NCBI GenBank assembly: GCA_021234155.1
Contig: JAJEKV010000011.1
Span: 14,297,255 to 14,361,254, forward strand
Length of the DNA stretch: 64,000 nucleotides
Reading direction: 5' to 3'
Source of the DNA: Isoetes taiwanensis
Taxonomy: Eukaryota > Streptophyta > Lycopodiopsida > Isoetales > Isoetaceae
Below the pieces are notes generated by a model. That model was not told where the DNA came from. It did no database searches and saw only the letters and a list, made by a program, of their open reading frames with translations. Positions 6,737-55,216 of this stretch are shown here, in pieces (the stretch's first letter is position 1; every line of letters begins with the position of its first letter). Both the position numbers and the translations under genes were made by a program.

Positions 6737-8713
6737 ATGTCTACAAAAAAATCTTCGCCTTTCAAGAGCATTCTTCGGGAATTTCAAGACCTAAGGGGAG
6801 GCATTGGGAGTCTGTCTAGGCGGAGTTTTGAAGTTAAACTTTCATATCATCAACGTTCAAGGTCGCATAGTGTTGTTTTGGATGAAAGCCAGTTCAATAA
6901 TGTGGTTGTGCAACAGAGTAACTGGGCTAATATGCCTCCAGAACTTCTTAGGGATGTAATCCAGCGGGTTGAGGCTAGTGAGAGCACATGGCCTGCTCGC
7001 AAACATGTAGTAGCATGTGCAGCAGTTTGCAGCACCTGGAGGGATATTACAAAAGAGCTTGTCAAGACTCCAGAGCTTTCTGGCAAGTTGACATTTCCTA
7101 TATCGTTAAAACAGGTATGGTGATAACCTACATTATAAATAGATGATGTTTTAGGAAGTATGTTTAGATGTTATATAGTTTGGCAAGTTGTGAACGTTCC
7201 ATGAAACATGGCCTTTTCAATAATTCTTTCATGGTTTTAATCCTCTTCATGGTTTTAATCCTGTTGAACTGGTTAAATTTCCAAAAATTTCATACCGTAT
7301 CTTTTGAATATGGATGTTTTTATCTTTTGAGACTTTGTCAAATGATAATGTATTTGGTATTTTTGGTTCACAGCCTGGTCCTCGAGATGCAACTGTTCAG
7401 TGCTTTATTAAGCGTGATAGAGCTACATCCACATACTATTTGTACCTGGGTCTCCCTCCAAGTGAGTATATGCTTATCTCATTGTAGTCATTGTGATGTG
7501 AAATGATGGAGGGGCAGACAGTGTATATATATTGGACAATCCTTAGATATTCTTCTTACAAGAAATTCTACAAATGTAGGACTCTACAACTTTGTTGTTG
7601 GTATAATTGCTGGCCTTTGCATGTCTTTATTGTTTTCGAGTGTATTGAAACAATGAGAATTACTATTCTACTGCACAACAAAGAAATACTAGAGGCTATT
7701 TGTTAAAGCAAAGGTGTACTTTTTATTTCCAAGTCTCCTTGTCCATTTTTGTATAGGGTAATGGTTGAACAAGAATTAACTATGAGTCTGTAATTAATTT
7801 GCTGTAACCTGCTTTGCAGATTTACTTGAGAATGGTAAACTGCTTCTAGCTGCTCGGAAATTTAGGCGTGCTACTAGCACTGATTACATCATCTCACTAG
7901 ATGCGGAGGATTTTTCACGTGGAAGCAATACATATGTAGGAAAATTACGGTAAGATTATATATTTTTAATCAATTTTTGCGTTTTTGGTGCGACATGGTG
8001 TTGGTGTTGGTGTTGGCATTCTAATGAATGACTTACTCTGCAGCTCCAATTTCCTTGGTACAAAATTTACAATTTATGATAGCCAACCTCCACACAGTGG
8101 TGCGGTGCCTTTGACAAACAGGGCAGGAAGAAGAATTGGTTCAAAGCAAGTCTCTCCAAGAGTACCAGCTGGGAGTTACAACATCGCCCATATAGCATAT
8201 GAACTCAACGTTCTTGGTACACGCGGTCCTCGGAGGATGCAGTGCACAATGCACTCTATACCTGCATCTGCTTTGGAAGTAGGCGGGTCAGCACCAACTC
8301 CTACTGAATTTTCTAGTTCTATGGATGATTCATTGCTCCCTGTACTTTTTTCGAAATCAAGATCTGCTGTTGCTGATTCCAGCAGAGCAGAGTCTGAATC
8401 CTTCAGGGAAATTCCAGTGAAGGATGGAGCTTTGATATTGAAAAACAAGGCTCCCAGATGGCATGAACAGCTTCAATGTTGGTGTTTGAATTTTCGTGGG
8501 CGCGTCACAGTTGCATCTGTTAAGAATTTTCAGCTGGTTGCAGCTACGGAGCCTGTCCAACCAATTTCACAAACTGATCATGATAAGGTCTTGCTGCAAT
8601 TTGGGAAGATTGGGAAGGATATGTTTACCATGGATTACCGTTATCCACTTTCTGCCTTCCAAGCCTTTGCAGTTTGTTTAAGTAGCTTCGACACAAAGCT
8701 AGCTTGCGAGTGA
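6737..8713 (+). CDS. Tubby-like F-box protein (TLP family)
   Basis: Four coding exons: 6,737-7,114, 7,374-7,461, 7,820-7,949 and 8,044-8,713, all with GT-AG introns and consistent phase, giving 421 residues, the usual plant TLP size. After a short basic N-terminus, an F-box spans about residues 62-108 ([18 protein letters not shown]...CSTWRDI). The tubby domain runs from about 120 to the end. It includes the basic [10 protein letters not shown] strand that in the family contributes to phosphoinositide binding, and the hallmark C-terminus [10 protein letters not shown]. In the family, the F-box joins an SCF ubiquitin ligase through a SKP1-like adaptor, and the tubby domain tethers the protein to plasma-membrane PIP2 until stress releases it. 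The ATG at 6,737 begins the typical [15 protein letters not shown]-like start. The upstream in-frame ATG at 6,683 adds residues unlike the family. No disabling change seen, so probably functional. Confidence 0.93.
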
Positions 8714-44059: not shown

Positions 44060-45599
44060 TTAAGTAAAATAGGTTCCACTTTTCATAGTCACACCTTTGG
44101 GGATCAGTGTATTTGCTGGAATAGCAACATAAATTCTAGGCCCTAACAAGCCTAGTGGCAGGTGCTCAATTTCAAACCAGCATGGGATTTTGATAGTAGA
44201 AAGGTAACTAGGAGAGAAGCCTGGCGTGTAAAATCGGTATAAAATAAAGCCTCCTGCAAAAGGGTCTGTTTCACGGGCAATTAATCTGTCCACAGCTGCT
44301 TCACACACAAATATAATGAGGAAAAAGTTATTGCCCAGCCTTTAATGATTGGCATTGGGGCAAATCTAACATCTTCAAGTGTGTTGATAGCCATGTACTT
44401 AATCTGCACAAATCCAGAAAGCCCCCAGCAAAACAATCCTACAACTGAGCACGAGATCAAGCACTTTTTGTGCATCTCATGATCAATTTCTGCCACTGGA
44501 AAATTATCTTCTACCTCCACGTTAGTGCCAGTGACCATTTCAGGCTAAGTATTCTTAATTGCTATTGTTAGGTTCTAAATGAGACTCCTCTAGTGCTTGA
44601 AGTGCCTCTGTAACTCTTGTGCTTCTATTAATATCTTGAATTTGGTTCTAAATCCACTCTGAAAATCTCAGCTTATTCACTATTCTTGCTGAGTTTATTC
44701 CTTTCCAAGCTGAAACTTTTGGATGAAGCCCACCACTTTGTGCTATCTTCTCTCAACTAGCATCAATCCTCTCAGTTTGATGCTCTGTCCTCACATTCTT
44801 TCCCCTTTTTTTCTAAAGACTTATGACCAGGATGTTTCTCTAGATTAATTACCACACTAGATGTTTGTTTCTAAGTAGGCTCTTCCGCATCATTTTGTGT
44901 GCCAAGACTTTTCTGATTTTTGACTTCCATATCTACCATTTCAGAATTTTGCTTCCTAGTATGAAGAGCTGAATCATCTAAGTTAAAAGAGAACTTACAT
45001 GTGACGCTTTTTTGATATCCCCTTTGTGCTTTATTGACTTCATTGGATCCTTATTATCTTGTGCTAGTATTGAGTCTACTAGTGCAGCAAATTTCTGCCT
45101 CAGCTTTGCCAGCTTGTTATCAACTAACTCTTTCTTTGCTTCCTGTTCTCTCTCCTTTGCATTCTTCATTATATCTTCCATCATAGAATTTGTTAGATCT
45201 ACTGCCACAAGGTTAAGATCAACAAAAATTTGCTTTGTAACTGTGTTGTACCCAAAATCTATCTTTCCAACCCCCTACAAGACAAATTTTACTCCACAAC
45301 ATTTATGCATTGATTTGAAGCCTTGTCTGCTCTTTCTGCTGATTTAGGAAGACTTTGGATCCCTGATTGCTCTATTCTGGTGTGTTTAAAGACCTAATCG
45401 AGTCTTGGTCTAGAGCTGGGACCTTACTTCCATTGCTTTCATCTGCCTGAATACCGGCTGAGCTCCTCCAAAATTGGGGCTTTTGTCCCGAAGTTGTCTG
45501 TTGTGATGTAGAACGGAATGGGCTCAGCCATTCTTGCTCCACTGACTGGCAGAATCCGAGAGTGTCGTGTACCAAATTTTGCAAGTCAGGGGGAAGCAA
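44060..45599 (-). mobile_element. Degenerate LINE ORF1 (DUF4283-like)
   Basis: Minus-strand pieces in order: a Q/S-rich N-terminus (45,599-45,372), a charged coiled-coil stretch MEDIMKNAKEREQEAKKE (45,208-44,978), then two overlapping frames (44,538-44,281 and 44,308-44,060). The last two together give FVQIKYMAINTLEDVRFAPMP, RLIARETDPFAGGFILYRFYTPGF and IPCWFEIEHLPLGLLG. The last strings follow the layout of the DUF4283-type domain of plant LINE ORF1 proteins (an FF/AGG strand, a W/YTPxF turn, then IPxWxxIxxLPL). Frames are broken and no ORF2 follows, so it is a dead fragment. I infer the family from the motif order. Confidence 0.65.
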
Positions 45600-45625
45600 G
45601 AATGGCTGAATCCATTCTGTTCTAT
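45511..45625. repeat. Imperfect fold-back sequence
   Basis: AGAACGGAATGGGCTCAGCC and the following ATTCTTGCTCC (45,511-45,541) are inverted at 45,592-45,625 (GGAAGCAAGAATGGCTGA then ATCCATTCTGTTCT), with about 50 bases between. The arms match at roughly 28 of 31 positions. It overlaps the start of the LINE ORF1 remnant, so it could be an insertion or a snap-back duplication. Confidence 0.6.
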
Positions 45626-46289
45626 GACATCAACGTAAGCTGCTTATCGGATTCTACAGGTTTGTTGAGGCAATTTGTCATTCTACTTAAGAATGAATCA
45701 AGTAATGGATGGAATGCTCATCCACTTACCTTGACAATATATTGTGGGCGGGCTTGGAGCCACCTAAAGGCCCACGTCGATCAACACTTGATGCCATCGT
45801 TGCTATCCGAGTAGTCACTCGAGTCGCCACTACAAGGTGCGCCACGTCCACCATCATCTGCTAATATTATTCCAAGCAATAGCCATTATGTCATAGCATG
45901 CAATGTTAACCTTGAGTATTAGAGGTTGGGCTAGGAACCAAGTAGATAGACTGAACGGACTCAAATCATGGCTTTTATAAAGAAGCACATAACTTTTTTT
46001 GTGCTCTAATGGCAATTTGTTATATGGATTAGAAGGCATCCAATCTATCACACTATTCTCCCCCAAGGTTGAGGTGGCAATTGGCATACATTAAACCTTT
46101 TATCTTGGGCAATTGTTGATTTGGGTTGGGATAACATAAGGTTTTGGAAGGTTGGGGCAAGTATTCGTATGGCTAAAGAGTATTATTCTGACGTCAGAAA
46201 TTAGGCTTTGGGATGGCTATGGTCGGTCTGGCTAGGTCAAAGGATTTTCATTTTTAGAAGCGTTGTTGTGGTGATGGGTTCGTGGGCGC
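45626..46289. other. Non-coding stretch upstream of the Rep-like gene
   Basis: No gene recognised. A perfect palindrome TCTGACGTCAGA lies at about 46,187-46,198, roughly 100 bases before the putative first exon of the Rep-like gene. It contains a TGACGTCA (CRE/bZIP-type) core. Confidence 0.35.
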
Positions 46290-46299
46290 GTGGACGCGA

Positions 46300-48124
46300 T
46301 GGAGCAGAGCAGGAGTAGTTTCGCATACGGCACTGGAGCTCATCACCATATTCTCTTGGAGTCGCAGGTGAGTCTGCTCTTTAAATTTGGGGGCTGTGGC
46401 TGTGTGGTGCCTATTGTTCTTGAGGAGGAAGCCTGTGAATTCACCTTCATTTCTTTGTTCTATTTATCGTTTGCTGTTGCAATTACCTTGTGAAGTCAGC
46501 TTGTGTTATGGTCTCGGGCCTCTAGCTGGTTTTGCAATTGAGATAAGATGCTGAAGAGGGCAACTAGGTGTAAGAAACAAGCTCTGCCTCCTGAGGCCAA
46601 TTTTTCTTGTATTGATGATGCTTTTTGTGTGGGGAACACAGAGGGGAGGTGTAAGGTAAGGGGTAGATTAGATAGTGAGGATGAGGGCAATGGGTTGCTG
46701 GATGTGAGCCTTACCTTAAGATATGCTGGGAGTGATGTACGGCTAAGCATGTTTGACAGACTTGTGGATTACCTAAAGAATGAGACTATTGCAGGGGTTG
46801 TGGCCCTTGAGAGGGGATCCGAGCTGGATCATTTGCATTGTCAGGGACTGCTGAGAACGACGTTGAAAACACCTCGGGTTATGGATGCTGCTATCAAAAA
46901 GTTCTTTGGTTGGAGATTCCAGAAGACAACGGGCATCCTCCTCATCGGCAAGGCCTTGAAGAACACAAGGATGCATTGCTTTGAGGGACTCGTGGGATAT
47001 TGAAGGACTTTGGAAAGGTCCACTTCAAGGTTTGCCTTTATAACTTGAGTGAGAAACAGATCAAGATGGGCAAAGATCTGTACCTCCTTCATGGTGCAGG
47101 GTGATCTCAAAAGTGTTATGGTGTTGGACAATAAGAACTTGCTACATAAGGCCCATCATTTTGTGAAGTACCATGGGAGGAAGCAGCTCTCTACCTTCCT
47201 TGTATATACTGTGTGCCGGATGCTGAGGACGGGGAAGTTTATACTATCTAGCCAGTGGATCTTGCCTACTAACTGTGCATTCATTTTAGAGCACCGTGTG
47301 AAGGCATCATGGAGAATAATGCTCAATCCATCGCGGGCCATGCCCAGTGACGTTCATTGTGTTGTATTTAACATCCCTGCAGGTATGCAGCCCGTTGAAC
47401 GATTGGGTAAGGCGAGGAAGAGATATTACGTTGATGCATGCAGCCCTGAAGATGGAGATGAGGGGTTTGTTGATGTTGCTGATGAGGAGTTCAGACCTGG
47501 GATGGAGGGGACATCCGAGCAGCCTGATTTCATTCCTTTGGACTCCATTGATTACACGACGACTATCAACTGATGGCATGCTTGCGTTTCTTTGCTTTTC
47601 ATCTGCAATTAGTTATTCCTTTGCATTCCTTGATTGTTCCAGTTTGACAAGAATAAATTTATGCCCATGCAGGAACATGCCTGTGTCAATGCCTTCTGTT
47701 GCCCATATAGTGAATAGGCAGCCAGAGGTCGTGGAGTCTTTCACTCCTCCTGACAGGCCAGCTGAACCTGCACTCCCTCAGGCTCCTTCTGTGGAGAATC
47801 TGATTTCCACTAGTCTCCCACATCCTCCTATGGCATATGCAGAGGCAGCGTGGACTCATGTGGCTTCTGAGTTGCTGACCAATGTCGTGAATATAAACAC
47901 TCTTGCAGAGACAGTTGCAGCTTCTGTGCGCTTGCTTCGTATGCATTCTGTGCGCCTGCTTCGTACGCAGCTGGGAGCTGGAAGAGACAATAGGAAGCAT
48001 GGAATGGAATGAAGTTGCGGTGTCGGCGAGGGAGAGGCAAGCTCTCAGGAGCCACATGAACCTGGCATGGGCTTTGCTGCTGCGGGAGTTGAGACACATT
48101 GACAGGTTCTCTCTTAGGCATTGA
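46300..48124 (+). pseudogene. Rep-like HUH endonuclease gene, replitron/CRESS-type, decayed
   Basis: Main frame 46,548-47,003, possibly preceded by an exon starting ATG 46,299 and ending CAG|GTGAGT at 46,369. It contains LTLRYAG (motif I-like, codons 55-61) and DHLHCQG with the HUH pair at codons 95 and 97 (46,830-46,838), inside ALERGSELDHLHCQG. The frame ends with a TGA directly after GLVGY, where the catalytic tyrosine motif (YxxK type, KD following) is expected. The continuation KDFGKVHFKV...KQIKMGKDLY is in another frame to about 47,100, then returns to the first frame (to 47,573), with RMLRTGKF...SSQWILPTN. A proline-rich and a helical segment (47,684-48,124) may be a further exon, also frame-shifted. 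No helicase domain is visible. In the family such proteins nick and join single-stranded DNA. This copy is inactive as read. Confidence 0.7.
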
Positions 48125-49441
48125 AGTCTCTCGTGCTGTAGATTGTGCCCCTAACAATTGCACATGGAAATGACAGGTTGGCAAGGAGGCATGCACAGGC
48201 ATTAAATATCACCACCAATTGATTGAAACTGTTATGTCATGGGATTTTGATTAATTCTCTATTATTTCTTTCTTTGTAGTTGCATTGGAGCATGATTTGT
48301 TTTTCTATGCTGCATGAATTCTGCAATAAGAAAACTAAAAAATTTGAGACGATGGGAAACTTACTTTTACATTGGCATGCTTGAGCACTTGCGTGGAATT
48401 AGTCCCCTGGCATAATGGATCGCCCTTTAGGGAGTTCCATTATGATGAAGCATCATGGGACCGATTCATGTCGGTGGGGTTCAAATCCCCATGCTTCTTC
48501 CTGTTACATCTCTATTTGATGTGATGGACAGGTGAACTGCTGTGCTGATCCCCTTATGAAACAGGTTCATGTGTGGGAGTTGGTGATCTGGAGCAAATTC
48601 TGCTATTGTTGGACAAGCATGCCTGTTGCAGTCCTGCCTCCCTCTTTTCCAATCTGTTTTGACATGTTCTGTTGTGTTTGAAGTGGAGAGTATGTAACAG
48701 AATGCTGTGGCAGCCACCTATGGTGTTGAATAGGAATGAAGTTCATTTAAACTATACACAATGTTGACCATGTTCAAGTTTGTTGCCATTGAAGGGCACA
48801 GGTTTCTCATTCAAGCTGGTGCTCTCGAACATGTAGTGTATGTATGTTTGGTGTTGATTACTCAGTATGCACACCTTTGATTTCATGAGAATACTATTCT
48901 AACCTTTGGGTGATGTGGAAAATGGGGTTTGACCCCATCTTATTTTTGGATGAACGGCCCCAATTTATGGATTTGGCATGATCTATGGAATATTCCATGC
49001 ATCAACGGCTCGGGTTGGACGAGTATGAGGGTTGAACATGCACTACTTTTGTCATGTGGATGGACACTAATGAGACCAAACCCTTAGTTTCAAATTACAT
49101 CCTTGGTTTAGATGGCAGTGCCCATAGCCATTGGTTATGTTGAAACCGGGCAAGAACAAGTAGGAAAAGTGTTGGAGAAGGCAATGGAGCAAGAGAGGAG
49201 GAGCTAAATGGGCGAAATAGTGAATGGGGCTTTAAATGGACAAAGTTAGGCTTTGGCATATAAAGGTACATATACGTAGAAAAATGACATATAACTGCAT
49301 AAATAATATATAAAGTGACTTTAATGAACATAGTGGGCACTGATATCCCCCAATGCAAGCTCCTCTATCTTAGAATTTTTAACTATCAAACATATCATAG
49401 ATACAATTGATGAAGTTTAATTAAGCAAAGTACCTGATGTA
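48125..49441. other. Non-coding stretch
   Basis: No protein gene recognised. A tRNA-like fold at 48,447-48,497 is listed separately. Confidence 0.4.
48447..48497 (+). other. tRNA-like fold lacking a D arm
   Basis: A 7-bp outer stem GAAGCAT/ATGCTTC encloses a 5-bp stem ACCGA/TCGGT with loop TTCATG and a perfect 5-bp T-arm TGGGG-TTCAAAT-CCCCA (B-box like GGTTCAAATCC). Total 51 bases, too short for a normal tRNA: there is no D arm or A box. It may be a deleted tRNA pseudogene or part of a tRNA-derived repeat. Confidence 0.4.
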
Positions 49442-53360: not shown

Positions 53361-55216
53361 ATGGGGAAAGATAACTATGGTATTTCGGTTTTAGAAACCG
53401 AAGGAAGCGGAGAGCATGGAAACTTAACCTGCCCTTGTCGAGGTTTTCTTGAGCAGATAACTTGTAAATGGGTTATCAGTGTTGCATTAGGTGTCCAATT
53501 GTTGGTGTTTGTGTTTCTCGCTATAGCCTTCCATGGAAAGCATAACAACGATCCATGGCCCCTTTCTGATGGTAAGTTCTACAAGCCTTAACTGCCAGCA
53601 TCTACTTCTTAAAGTTTCTCAAGTTCTTTTCTGTTGTTGAAGCCTGCCAGTTAGTCAATCTTAATTTAGGCCTTCATATATAGACATGCATTCTATTAAT
53701 CGTATTTTCTTTTGTGGCTTTCACATTTAGAAACGCCAACAGCAGCAGATAAATAGAGATCATGAGTCTCAGGTGATACTATCCAGCTTGTTGTCTTCAT
53801 TATTCTGCAAACACTACTTAAGTACTTTGAAATCTAGAATTGAACCACCAATACAGCGTCCTAGTTGGATACATTTAGTGAATATCACTTTAACTAACAT
53901 AGATATGCATGCACATCAAAGGGTTTTGCTGTAGCATGCAATACAGTAAATTATTTTGATTTCTGTCCACGTAGTTTATAATATTTTCTTTGCAGCTAAA
54001 GCTGTGGCAAGCTTTAAGTTGAGGAGATCTGTGAATGATGTGAAATCTGATGTTGAGAACCTCAAGTTAAACATCTCAAGCAAGATCATCTTCCCTGGTG
54101 TAAAGGTAGACTTCATACTTTCTTTTTTCCTTATTCTGTTTGCCCCAATTTTTTGTACTATTTCTTTGTCCTCTTGCAAATGAGCTTGTTATAATCGTTG
54201 TAAAAAAATTAAATATGCAGGTGGACATTTGGAGAGTGCAGGAAACTAAGCCAAAGGGTTGGACAGAAGTAATTTTTGGTGTATTACCAGATCCTTCAAA
54301 TAAATCCTTGTCATTCGAGGATATAACCAAGCTCAGGGGGACAGTCGTGAAGCTCTACCTGAAAGAAAAGAACTTGTCTTTAGTGCCAAATGCTTTTGGC
54401 AAAGCTTATGAGTTTCAAGTATTGGACTTTTATGGAGGTCTTACTATTGTTCCAGAACGTGCGAGCAAATCTTTATCGAGAAGGTGTGCACTTTTCAACT
54501 TCACACTGCACAATTCCCTTTCCCATGTCAATTCTCAGTTCAAGGAGTTCAAAACACAGTTGGCTCATGGATTATCTCTAGCACATGACGAGGTGAGTTA
54601 TTTGAATAAAACTTTGTGATTTTATCGTAAATTGTTCTGAAATTTTATAATTTTTTTTTGCTGCAGAACTTAATAACCCGTTTAACAAATTTAGAGGGTT
54701 CTACGCTCAAAGCTCCTGTGATTGTCCAAGCATCTGTCTTCCGAGCTGTTGATCATCATCTTACAACTCCAAGGCTCAAGCAACTTGCTCAACATGTAAT
54801 CAGAAATCGTTCACAAAACCTGGGGTTGAATCACAGCATGTTCGGAAATGTAAGAGAGATACGCCTATCTCCGTATTTGCAACATTCCTTAGGACTGCCC
54901 CATGCACCGAGTCCAGCCCCATCTCCCATGCAGGGATTTGTTACAACTTCATGGCAAACTAAGCCGTCAGATAGTTTATTTCAGCCTATTCCTGCTCCTG
55001 CTTCATCTCCATCACTCCATTTGCCCGAATTAGGTCGGTCTTCTGCTCCATCAGCTACAGTTGTGGAAGAGACAAATGAGCTCTCACACAAAAGTGTTCT
55101 CCCACCTATGTCGGGTAAGTCAAATGTGTCATCAAAGTTGTCTAGTATTTTTTTTAAATTTTTTGAGCATGCCAATGGCAAGTTCTAAAGGTTTTTTTAC
55201 AGATGTGGCACCTTGA
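53361..55216 (+). CDS. Single-pass membrane protein, DUF7036-like plant family
   Basis: Exons 53,361-53,571, 53,996-54,105, 54,221-54,592 and 54,667-55,114, plus a short last exon 55,203-55,216, in consistent phase, giving about 384 residues. The start is the first ATG in frame; an upstream TTG codon in the same frame at 53,346 is ignored. After a short N-terminus with CPC, one membrane helix spans residues 37-57 (WVISVALGVQLLVFVFLAIAF). Two repeat-like extracytoplasmic segments follow (GWTEVIFGVLPDPSNKSLSFE, then FEVLDF-like GGLTIVPERAS and LFNFTLHNSL). The region ends in NLEGSTLKAPVIVQASV and LKQLAQHV, then a proline/serine-rich tail (APSPAPSP). I recall this order from the plant family labelled DUF7036, whose function is unknown. 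If the last intron is not removed, the frame runs on to a TAA at 55,186-55,188 (404 residues). Confidence 0.8.

Follow-up and report, generated by a model that had tools for sequence, protein, structure and literature searches.

What is a broken, Rep-like HUH endonuclease frame doing in the genome of the lycophyte Isoetes taiwanensis? The question arises from a stretch of 64,000 nucleotides (hereafter the window), in which a first-pass annotation had recognised Rep-type motifs and had proposed a plant replitron, distinct from Helitron. Replitrons are recently recognised transposons of plants and algae that use a virus-like HUH enzyme, defined by a single catalytic tyrosine and by the lack of a fused helicase; their founding paper is reportedly Craig 2023 (PNAS). 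Related enzymes are found in Helitrons, whose ends read TC...CTRR and which carry two tyrosines and a helicase, and in CRESS-DNA viruses, which show the Rep motifs in the order I-III, an SF3 helicase in Rep and a capsid gene. In the bacterial IS91/ISCR and related HUH transposases, target letters resemble the element end, so that no duplication arises.

According to the available part of a review (PMC10741241), replitrons occur in liverworts, mosses, lycophytes and ferns, have direct terminal repeats of 5-11 bp and 'can' give a 2-8 bp target duplication on insertion; the premise that few land-plant replitrons had been characterised is hereby corrected. HUH enzymes cut single-stranded DNA via a tyrosine and stay linked to the DNA (PMC13231165, available in part), and the replitron figures in a reference entry of PMC13253262, likewise available in part. 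On the strength of that part of the review (PMC10741241), replitrons in lycophytes are already known and the Isoetes element is a further case; the literature search gave nothing joining the Isoetes genome assembly with an HUH endonuclease.

Here, I argue, at a probability of about 0.93, that the locus belongs to a replitron with many copies in this lycophyte genome and that the window holds a dead one.

A decayed copy in the window

The motifs LTLRYAG, DHLHCQG and GLVGY, previously read as CRESS Rep motifs I-III, do lie in that order, all within a single open frame of the ORF listing (46,542-47,003). The profile PF21859 (Replitron_HUH) matches this frame at residues 56-153 with 31.0 bits (E 3.7e-7); since this is above the curated cut-off of 28.5, the motif frame is not a product of chance, and the profile check bears out the proposed Rep/replitron HUH identity. 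In the window frame a stop codon comes right after the tyrosine codon. Alignment to the 362-residue open frame of the relative L021 keeps ORF1 in frame up to GLVGY, then puts it out of frame for about 35 codons, the frame being regained from QGDLKS (~47,100) to the shared ORF1 end at 47,573; compensating frame changes near 47,001 and 47,100 had been predicted, and the alignment confirms them.

Other parts of the first-pass annotation need revision. Its 'extended C-terminus without helicase motifs' stands in so far as no helicase match was found, but the part at ~47,677-48,124 is a second broken ORF, in another frame than the HUH part; tblastn of the ORF2 of L018 recovers it at 47,677-47,961 in frame 1 and at 47,930-48,151 in frame 2. 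The limits of 46,300 and 48,124 were too narrow, the element running from 46,100 to about 49,033 (Table 1). The relative L069 spans window positions 46,100 to 49,037 with 84.1% identity over 2,972 columns. The window element measures 2,932 bp, the nine other copies measured being 934-3,106 bp long.

Table 1. Coordinates of the replitron copy and its features within the window
Feature	Position	Strand	Remarks
Whole replitron copy, ~2.93 kb	46100..49033	+	right end uncertain by several bp
Conserved 5' end TTAT[C/G]TTGGGCAATTGTTG	46100..46118	+	20 5' ends compared; first TT judged host target
ORF1, HUH transposase gene	46548..47573	+	start codon picked by eye; frame lost from ~47,001 to ~47,100
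Replitron_HUH domain match	46707..47000	+	PF21859 positions 3-98 of 128
Motif I, LTLRYAG	46710..46730	+	relatives: LTLGYAG, VTLGLSG, VTLGMAG
HUH motif (HLH)	46830..46838	+	invariant in 4 aligned proteins; L100 has DRLH instead
Predicted catalytic tyrosine codon	46998..47000	+	relatives go on GYC(L/M)KD
ORF2, second conserved coding region	47677..48124	+	tblastn with L018 ORF2; disrupted in this copy by a shift of frame near 47,930-47,960
Imperfect subterminal palindrome	48975..48996	+	suggestive
3' terminal unit CGGGTTGGACGAGT|ATG	49011..49027	+	
Start of truncated second terminal unit (AGGGTT)	49028..49033	+	

The profile PF21860 (Replitron_C) had no match in the window fragments, and Rfam gave none in the window at the gathering score. 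Two further window frames gave Pfam hits below cut-off, one to Anoctamin (E 0.053) and one to Gasdermin (E 0.27), which were attributed to chance. A structure predicted from the single sequence of the HUH fragment alone had a mean pLDDT of 33.4 and was discarded. The window copy is a dead, decayed replitron, ordinary for its group.

Elsewhere in the window, a minus-strand stretch at 10,954-12,865 matches the Pif1 2B helicase domain PF21530 (E 2.7e-7), and the ORFs beside this match look, by eye, like the N-terminus of a Helitron protein; it seems to be a Helitron remnant, present besides the replitron. The plus strand carries a Tubby-like coding stretch at 7,970-8,713 (Tub, PF01167, E 7.9e-77), probably an ordinary host gene, and a DUF7036 domain at 54,631-55,188 (PF23041, E 6.3e-8), probably an exon of a host gene. 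Upstream of the replitron, an inverted repeat at 45,509-45,624, with 30-nt arms that are 90% complementary and 56 nt between them, is possibly a small foldback element.

Copies and families in the genome

The searched genome comprises 1,658,258,908 bases in 1,110 contigs. All 150 scored matches of a PF21859 profile search (2,165 rough candidates) were above the cut-off, none of 14 control genomes being matched, and all 150 scored candidates of a protein search (2,546 first-look candidates) matched as well; the copy number is thus given as at least 150 matching places. Four groups are distinguished, namely A1, the window's group; its sister A2 (L020, L021, L023, L024, L094 and L099); and the diverged groups B (L095, L096 and L100) and C (L093, L097 and L098). 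The window copy differs from L069 by 16%; the likeness between L093 and L098 (family C) is 96-98%. Three short copies have both ends and a different or absent middle, namely L067 (1,400 bp), L071 (934 bp) and L074 (1,139 bp), and look non-autonomous.

The HUH protein and a second coding region

In relatives the HUH profile is matched far below the window's E value, at 5e-20 in L021 and 4.7e-20 in L093. The aligned family representatives keep (V/L)TLG, DHLH(C/Y)Q and GYC(L/M)KD, and with them the HxH and tyrosine motifs; L100 has DRLHYQ. Three aligned relatives have one tyrosine in GYC(L/M)KD, and the window copy keeps this tyrosine before losing the frame. No helicase was found among Pfam matches up to E 10 in the ORF1 proteins of two relatives and the ORF2 proteins of two. 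Replitron_C (PF21860) reached E 0.08 and 13.8 bits in L093, against a cut-off of 27, and had no match in L021; solved structures searched with the L021 protein gave no match up to E 10.

ORF2 is present in 25 of 37 records (36 fetched stretches and the window). In 18 of these 25 the HUH and ORF2 matches lie 538-674 bp apart, in the remaining ones between 78 and 3,771 bp. At the protein level, ORF2 of A2 is 60% identical to that of B over 106 residues and 40% identical to that of C over 96, with E values of 8.8e-32 and 1.7e-22, respectively, in a three-sequence comparison. No Pfam family matched ORF2 of A2 and B up to E 10; by eye, the protein looks mainly helical.

Both ORFs are under selection. 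For ORF1 (seven copies, hand-picked for open frames) dN/dS is 0.15-0.33 within families and 0.11-0.12 in the two finite A2-B pairs. For ORF2 (eight copies, likewise hand-picked) it is 0.08-0.12 within A2 and 0.14-0.31 within A1, except for 2.87 in the duplicated pair L015/L017; between A1 and A2 it is 0.03-0.07 where finite, with dS near saturation and eight such pairs lacking a finite value.

ORF2 might be a further exon of one HUH protein and no separate protein, which would be compatible with the replitron reading and to which I give slightly less than even odds. It is tied to the HUH part: of the 30 records with HUH part 25 have it, of the seven without HUH part none. By eye, many copies also show a T-rich gap before ORF2, with a TGCAG-like acceptor at its end. 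Against a single spliced protein, ORF1 stops with TGA at the same position in 22 of the 23 copies readable by pattern (L013 differs), and no common GT donor was seen by eye at the ORF1 end. A short frame at 46,299-46,367, starting with MEQSR and ending at CAG|GTGAGT, has a similar MDQSR counterpart in L023 and L024; it is possibly a first exon, a frame joining it to ORF1 being unfit in some copies (by eye).

Element ends

The dispersed copies have recurring ends. Of 41 non-self matches to a 5' query, none extends left of 46,097 and 26 start at 46,097-46,100, the rest starting further in; all 39 non-self matches to a 3' query end at 49,024-49,045. The A1 5' end reads TTAT[C/G]TTGGGC, and the preceding base is A or T in 20/20 rows (13 A, 7 T), that is, in 19 of 20 fetched ends, L054 being left out as off-pattern, and the window; as L046, L048 and L050 share one flank, 18 of these rows are independent. 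Family C starts with AATGTG, preceded by a host T in 13/13 rows and by AT in 11/13 (T in 12/12 and AT in 10/12 independent left flanks, two rows sharing one). The 5' ends of A2 are mostly ATT|AAGTT, L094 having CATC|AAGTT without ATT, and the three left flanks of family B end in C, T and A. L070 and L011 each contain a further, internal copy of the 46 bp at the 5' terminus, as would result from a duplication of the left end.

The 3' end of families A and C is built of units of 16-17 bp, typically one or two. Among 20 fetched A1 3' ends, eight of which repeat the flank of another and are not independent, nine have one unit by my criterion, ten have two and one has three, the third unit being doubtful. 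Several 3' ends, including that of the window, stop inside the second unit, and unit number differs behind one and the same right flank (L033 and L044 vs L031, L038, L040 and L042). The recurrence of that flank beside all six of these 3' ends suggests that a replitron end is being carried within some other repeat. L015 and L017 are duplicated stretches, 93% alike, that share the insertion and, by eye, have two and three 3' units, respectively; the number of units is thus open to change once an element has inserted. No 16-17 bp units occur in the two 3' ends of family B that were seen.

No terminal inverted repeats were seen when the ends were compared by eye; the letters common to both ends amount to 3-5 nt (such as ATT or ATAAT) and are partly host target. 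The 3' units are preceded by a palindrome, e.g. GGAATATTCC-AT-GGAATATTCC or GGCATATGC-TGT-GGCATATGCC, for which the evidence is suggestive of a real feature. In 15 hand-picked sequences, 85.1% of cells are standard pairs and slid versions are worse; the third pair is broken in 6/15 and the eighth in 7/15. Its covariation score was equalled by 2 of 500 shuffles, its both-side pair changes were matched by 64 and its further pair types by 257. When 3' ends were folded as single sequences, the z values lay between +1.5 and -3.0 and in most cases did not set the fold apart from shuffles; the rows for L069, L075, L078 and L095 are uninformative because the pattern had picked an internal stretch.

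Empty sites and target

Comparing the flanks of intact relatives had been proposed in the first-pass annotation, and besides the recurring 5' and 3' ends it yielded junction-spanning empty sites for 8 of 19 insertions (5/10 and 3/9). The search used the joined flanks of these insertions, with 40 of 332 and 40 of 1,595 candidates scored, the host repeat of L096 filling most of the second candidate list; for the other 11 insertions none was found among the candidates scored, and the joined flanks of the window copy met only their own two half-matches there.

In the case of L020, six of the nine empty copies listed were read and show CCATT|TC or CAATT|TC, and ATT stands at either end of the element in the filled site; the junction is clean, but a 3-bp ATT duplication would look the same as one ATT from the host and another belonging to the element. 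The right flank of L020 matches for ~36 bp, after which the empty copies have ~185 bp that are absent beside L020; this segment belongs to the host repeat in which L020 sits (L084-L089). For L098 the outcome ranges between the loss of 1 bp and the doubling of 1 bp, according to how the ends are placed. Compared with their empty sites, L075 lacks 5-7 bp, L016 4-7 bp (its T(T) differing at one base), L095 3-5 bp and L096 about 4-6 bp (five empty copies read). Flanks at the empty sites of L067 and L023 were too altered to judge. Target bases (~3-7) are therefore missing in four of six judged empty sites, a lack that could also reflect later decay, and right ends are imprecise; no target duplication above 1 bp is present in the five judged insertions other than L020.

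The left TT is present in the empty sites of L020, L075 and L098, and all but one base of it in that of L016. The left T(T) or AT is accordingly host sequence in the judged insertions of families A and C, and on account of the family A empty sites the TT at the 5' end of the window copy is read likewise. In family B a host origin of the left letters does not hold in the same way.

Replitron, Helitron or virus

The PF21859-type HUH enzyme, the one tyrosine, the absence of terminal inverted repeats by eye and of a helicase among the matches, a window element of 2.93 kb, within the replitron length range of 0.9-4 kb, and a non-seed plant as host are as in replitrons; the proposal of a plant replitron is further supported by the dispersal of copies with recurring ends. 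An endogenised Rep of a CRESS-DNA virus would account for the motif order and for a tyrosine motif like that of CRESS Reps, and is nonetheless highly improbable, for the sequences form a dispersed repeat with recurring ends, short copies retaining both ends and empty sites, the replitron profile scores above its cut-off, and neither an SF3 helicase nor a capsid protein was among the Pfam matches of the window fragments or of the four relative proteins.

Equally improbable is a Helitron, a rolling-circle element whose Rep has two tyrosines and is fused to a Pif1-type helicase. The HUH enzyme, the host A/T at the insertion point, the want of a clear target duplication and the possible subterminal palindrome would all suit it; the profile matched is that of Replitron_HUH, however, GYC(L/M)KD holds a single tyrosine, the relative proteins show no helicase, and the ends are TTAT[C/G]TTGGG and GACGAGTAT instead of TC...CTRR, so that the separation from Helitrons made at first reading is retained. 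HUH chemistry, the possible palindrome and insertion without target duplication, a Helitron trait according to the available part of the review (PMC10741241), remain the points of likeness.

Within replitrons, the Isoetes elements depart from that part of the review (PMC10741241) in that the letters shared by their ends number 3-5 nt, vs 5-11 bp, and in the five insertions without duplication above 1 bp, although duplication, optional by the review's wording, is no defining trait; the second conserved ORF and, in families A and C, the 3' units also set them apart. In the replitron literature examined, available in part and not including Craig 2023, ORF2, the terminal units and the missing duplication are undescribed, and are possibly new.

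A possible mode of transposition

In working copies, the ORF1 HUH enzyme, with its one tyrosine, would nick single-stranded DNA at the T|A step of the left end; the element would then be copied by a rolling-circle type of replication, copying would stop at a 3' unit (one or two being present, and each finishing on a T|A step of the same kind), and the copy would be joined just 3' of a host T or TT. That a like T|A step is found at the left end, in the right-end units and in the target suggests cutting there and joining beside host T(T). Given the likeness of the host letters to the 3' end of the element itself, no target duplication would be expected; target letters resembling the element's own end, without duplication, are also what likens these elements, by description, to IS91/ISCR. 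The ragged right end would stem from the choice of unit used, and ORF2 may act in oligomerisation or as a helper. I infer as most likely the nick position, the rolling-circle copying, the units as terminators and the extension of the scheme to family B.

A wider reading is that lycophyte replitrons are two-gene transposons which need a second protein, under strong selection in three diverged families, and that insertion, in families A and C at the least, takes place 3' of host T(T) and leaves no duplication, one or two iteron-like units serving as alternative stops. I regard it as tentative and rather unlikely as a whole, its odds being lowered by family B, which has neither the terminal units nor the T(T) flank.

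The literature searched, as far as it was available, holds little on the mechanism of replitrons. Near-identical copies (L093/L098), empty sites, short derivatives and at least 150 matching places make end recognition, target choice and the role of ORF2 testable in this genome. If the two-gene, T(T)-targeted reading is true, what has been described as replitron direct repeats and duplications may in part be a host target motif that mimics the element end.
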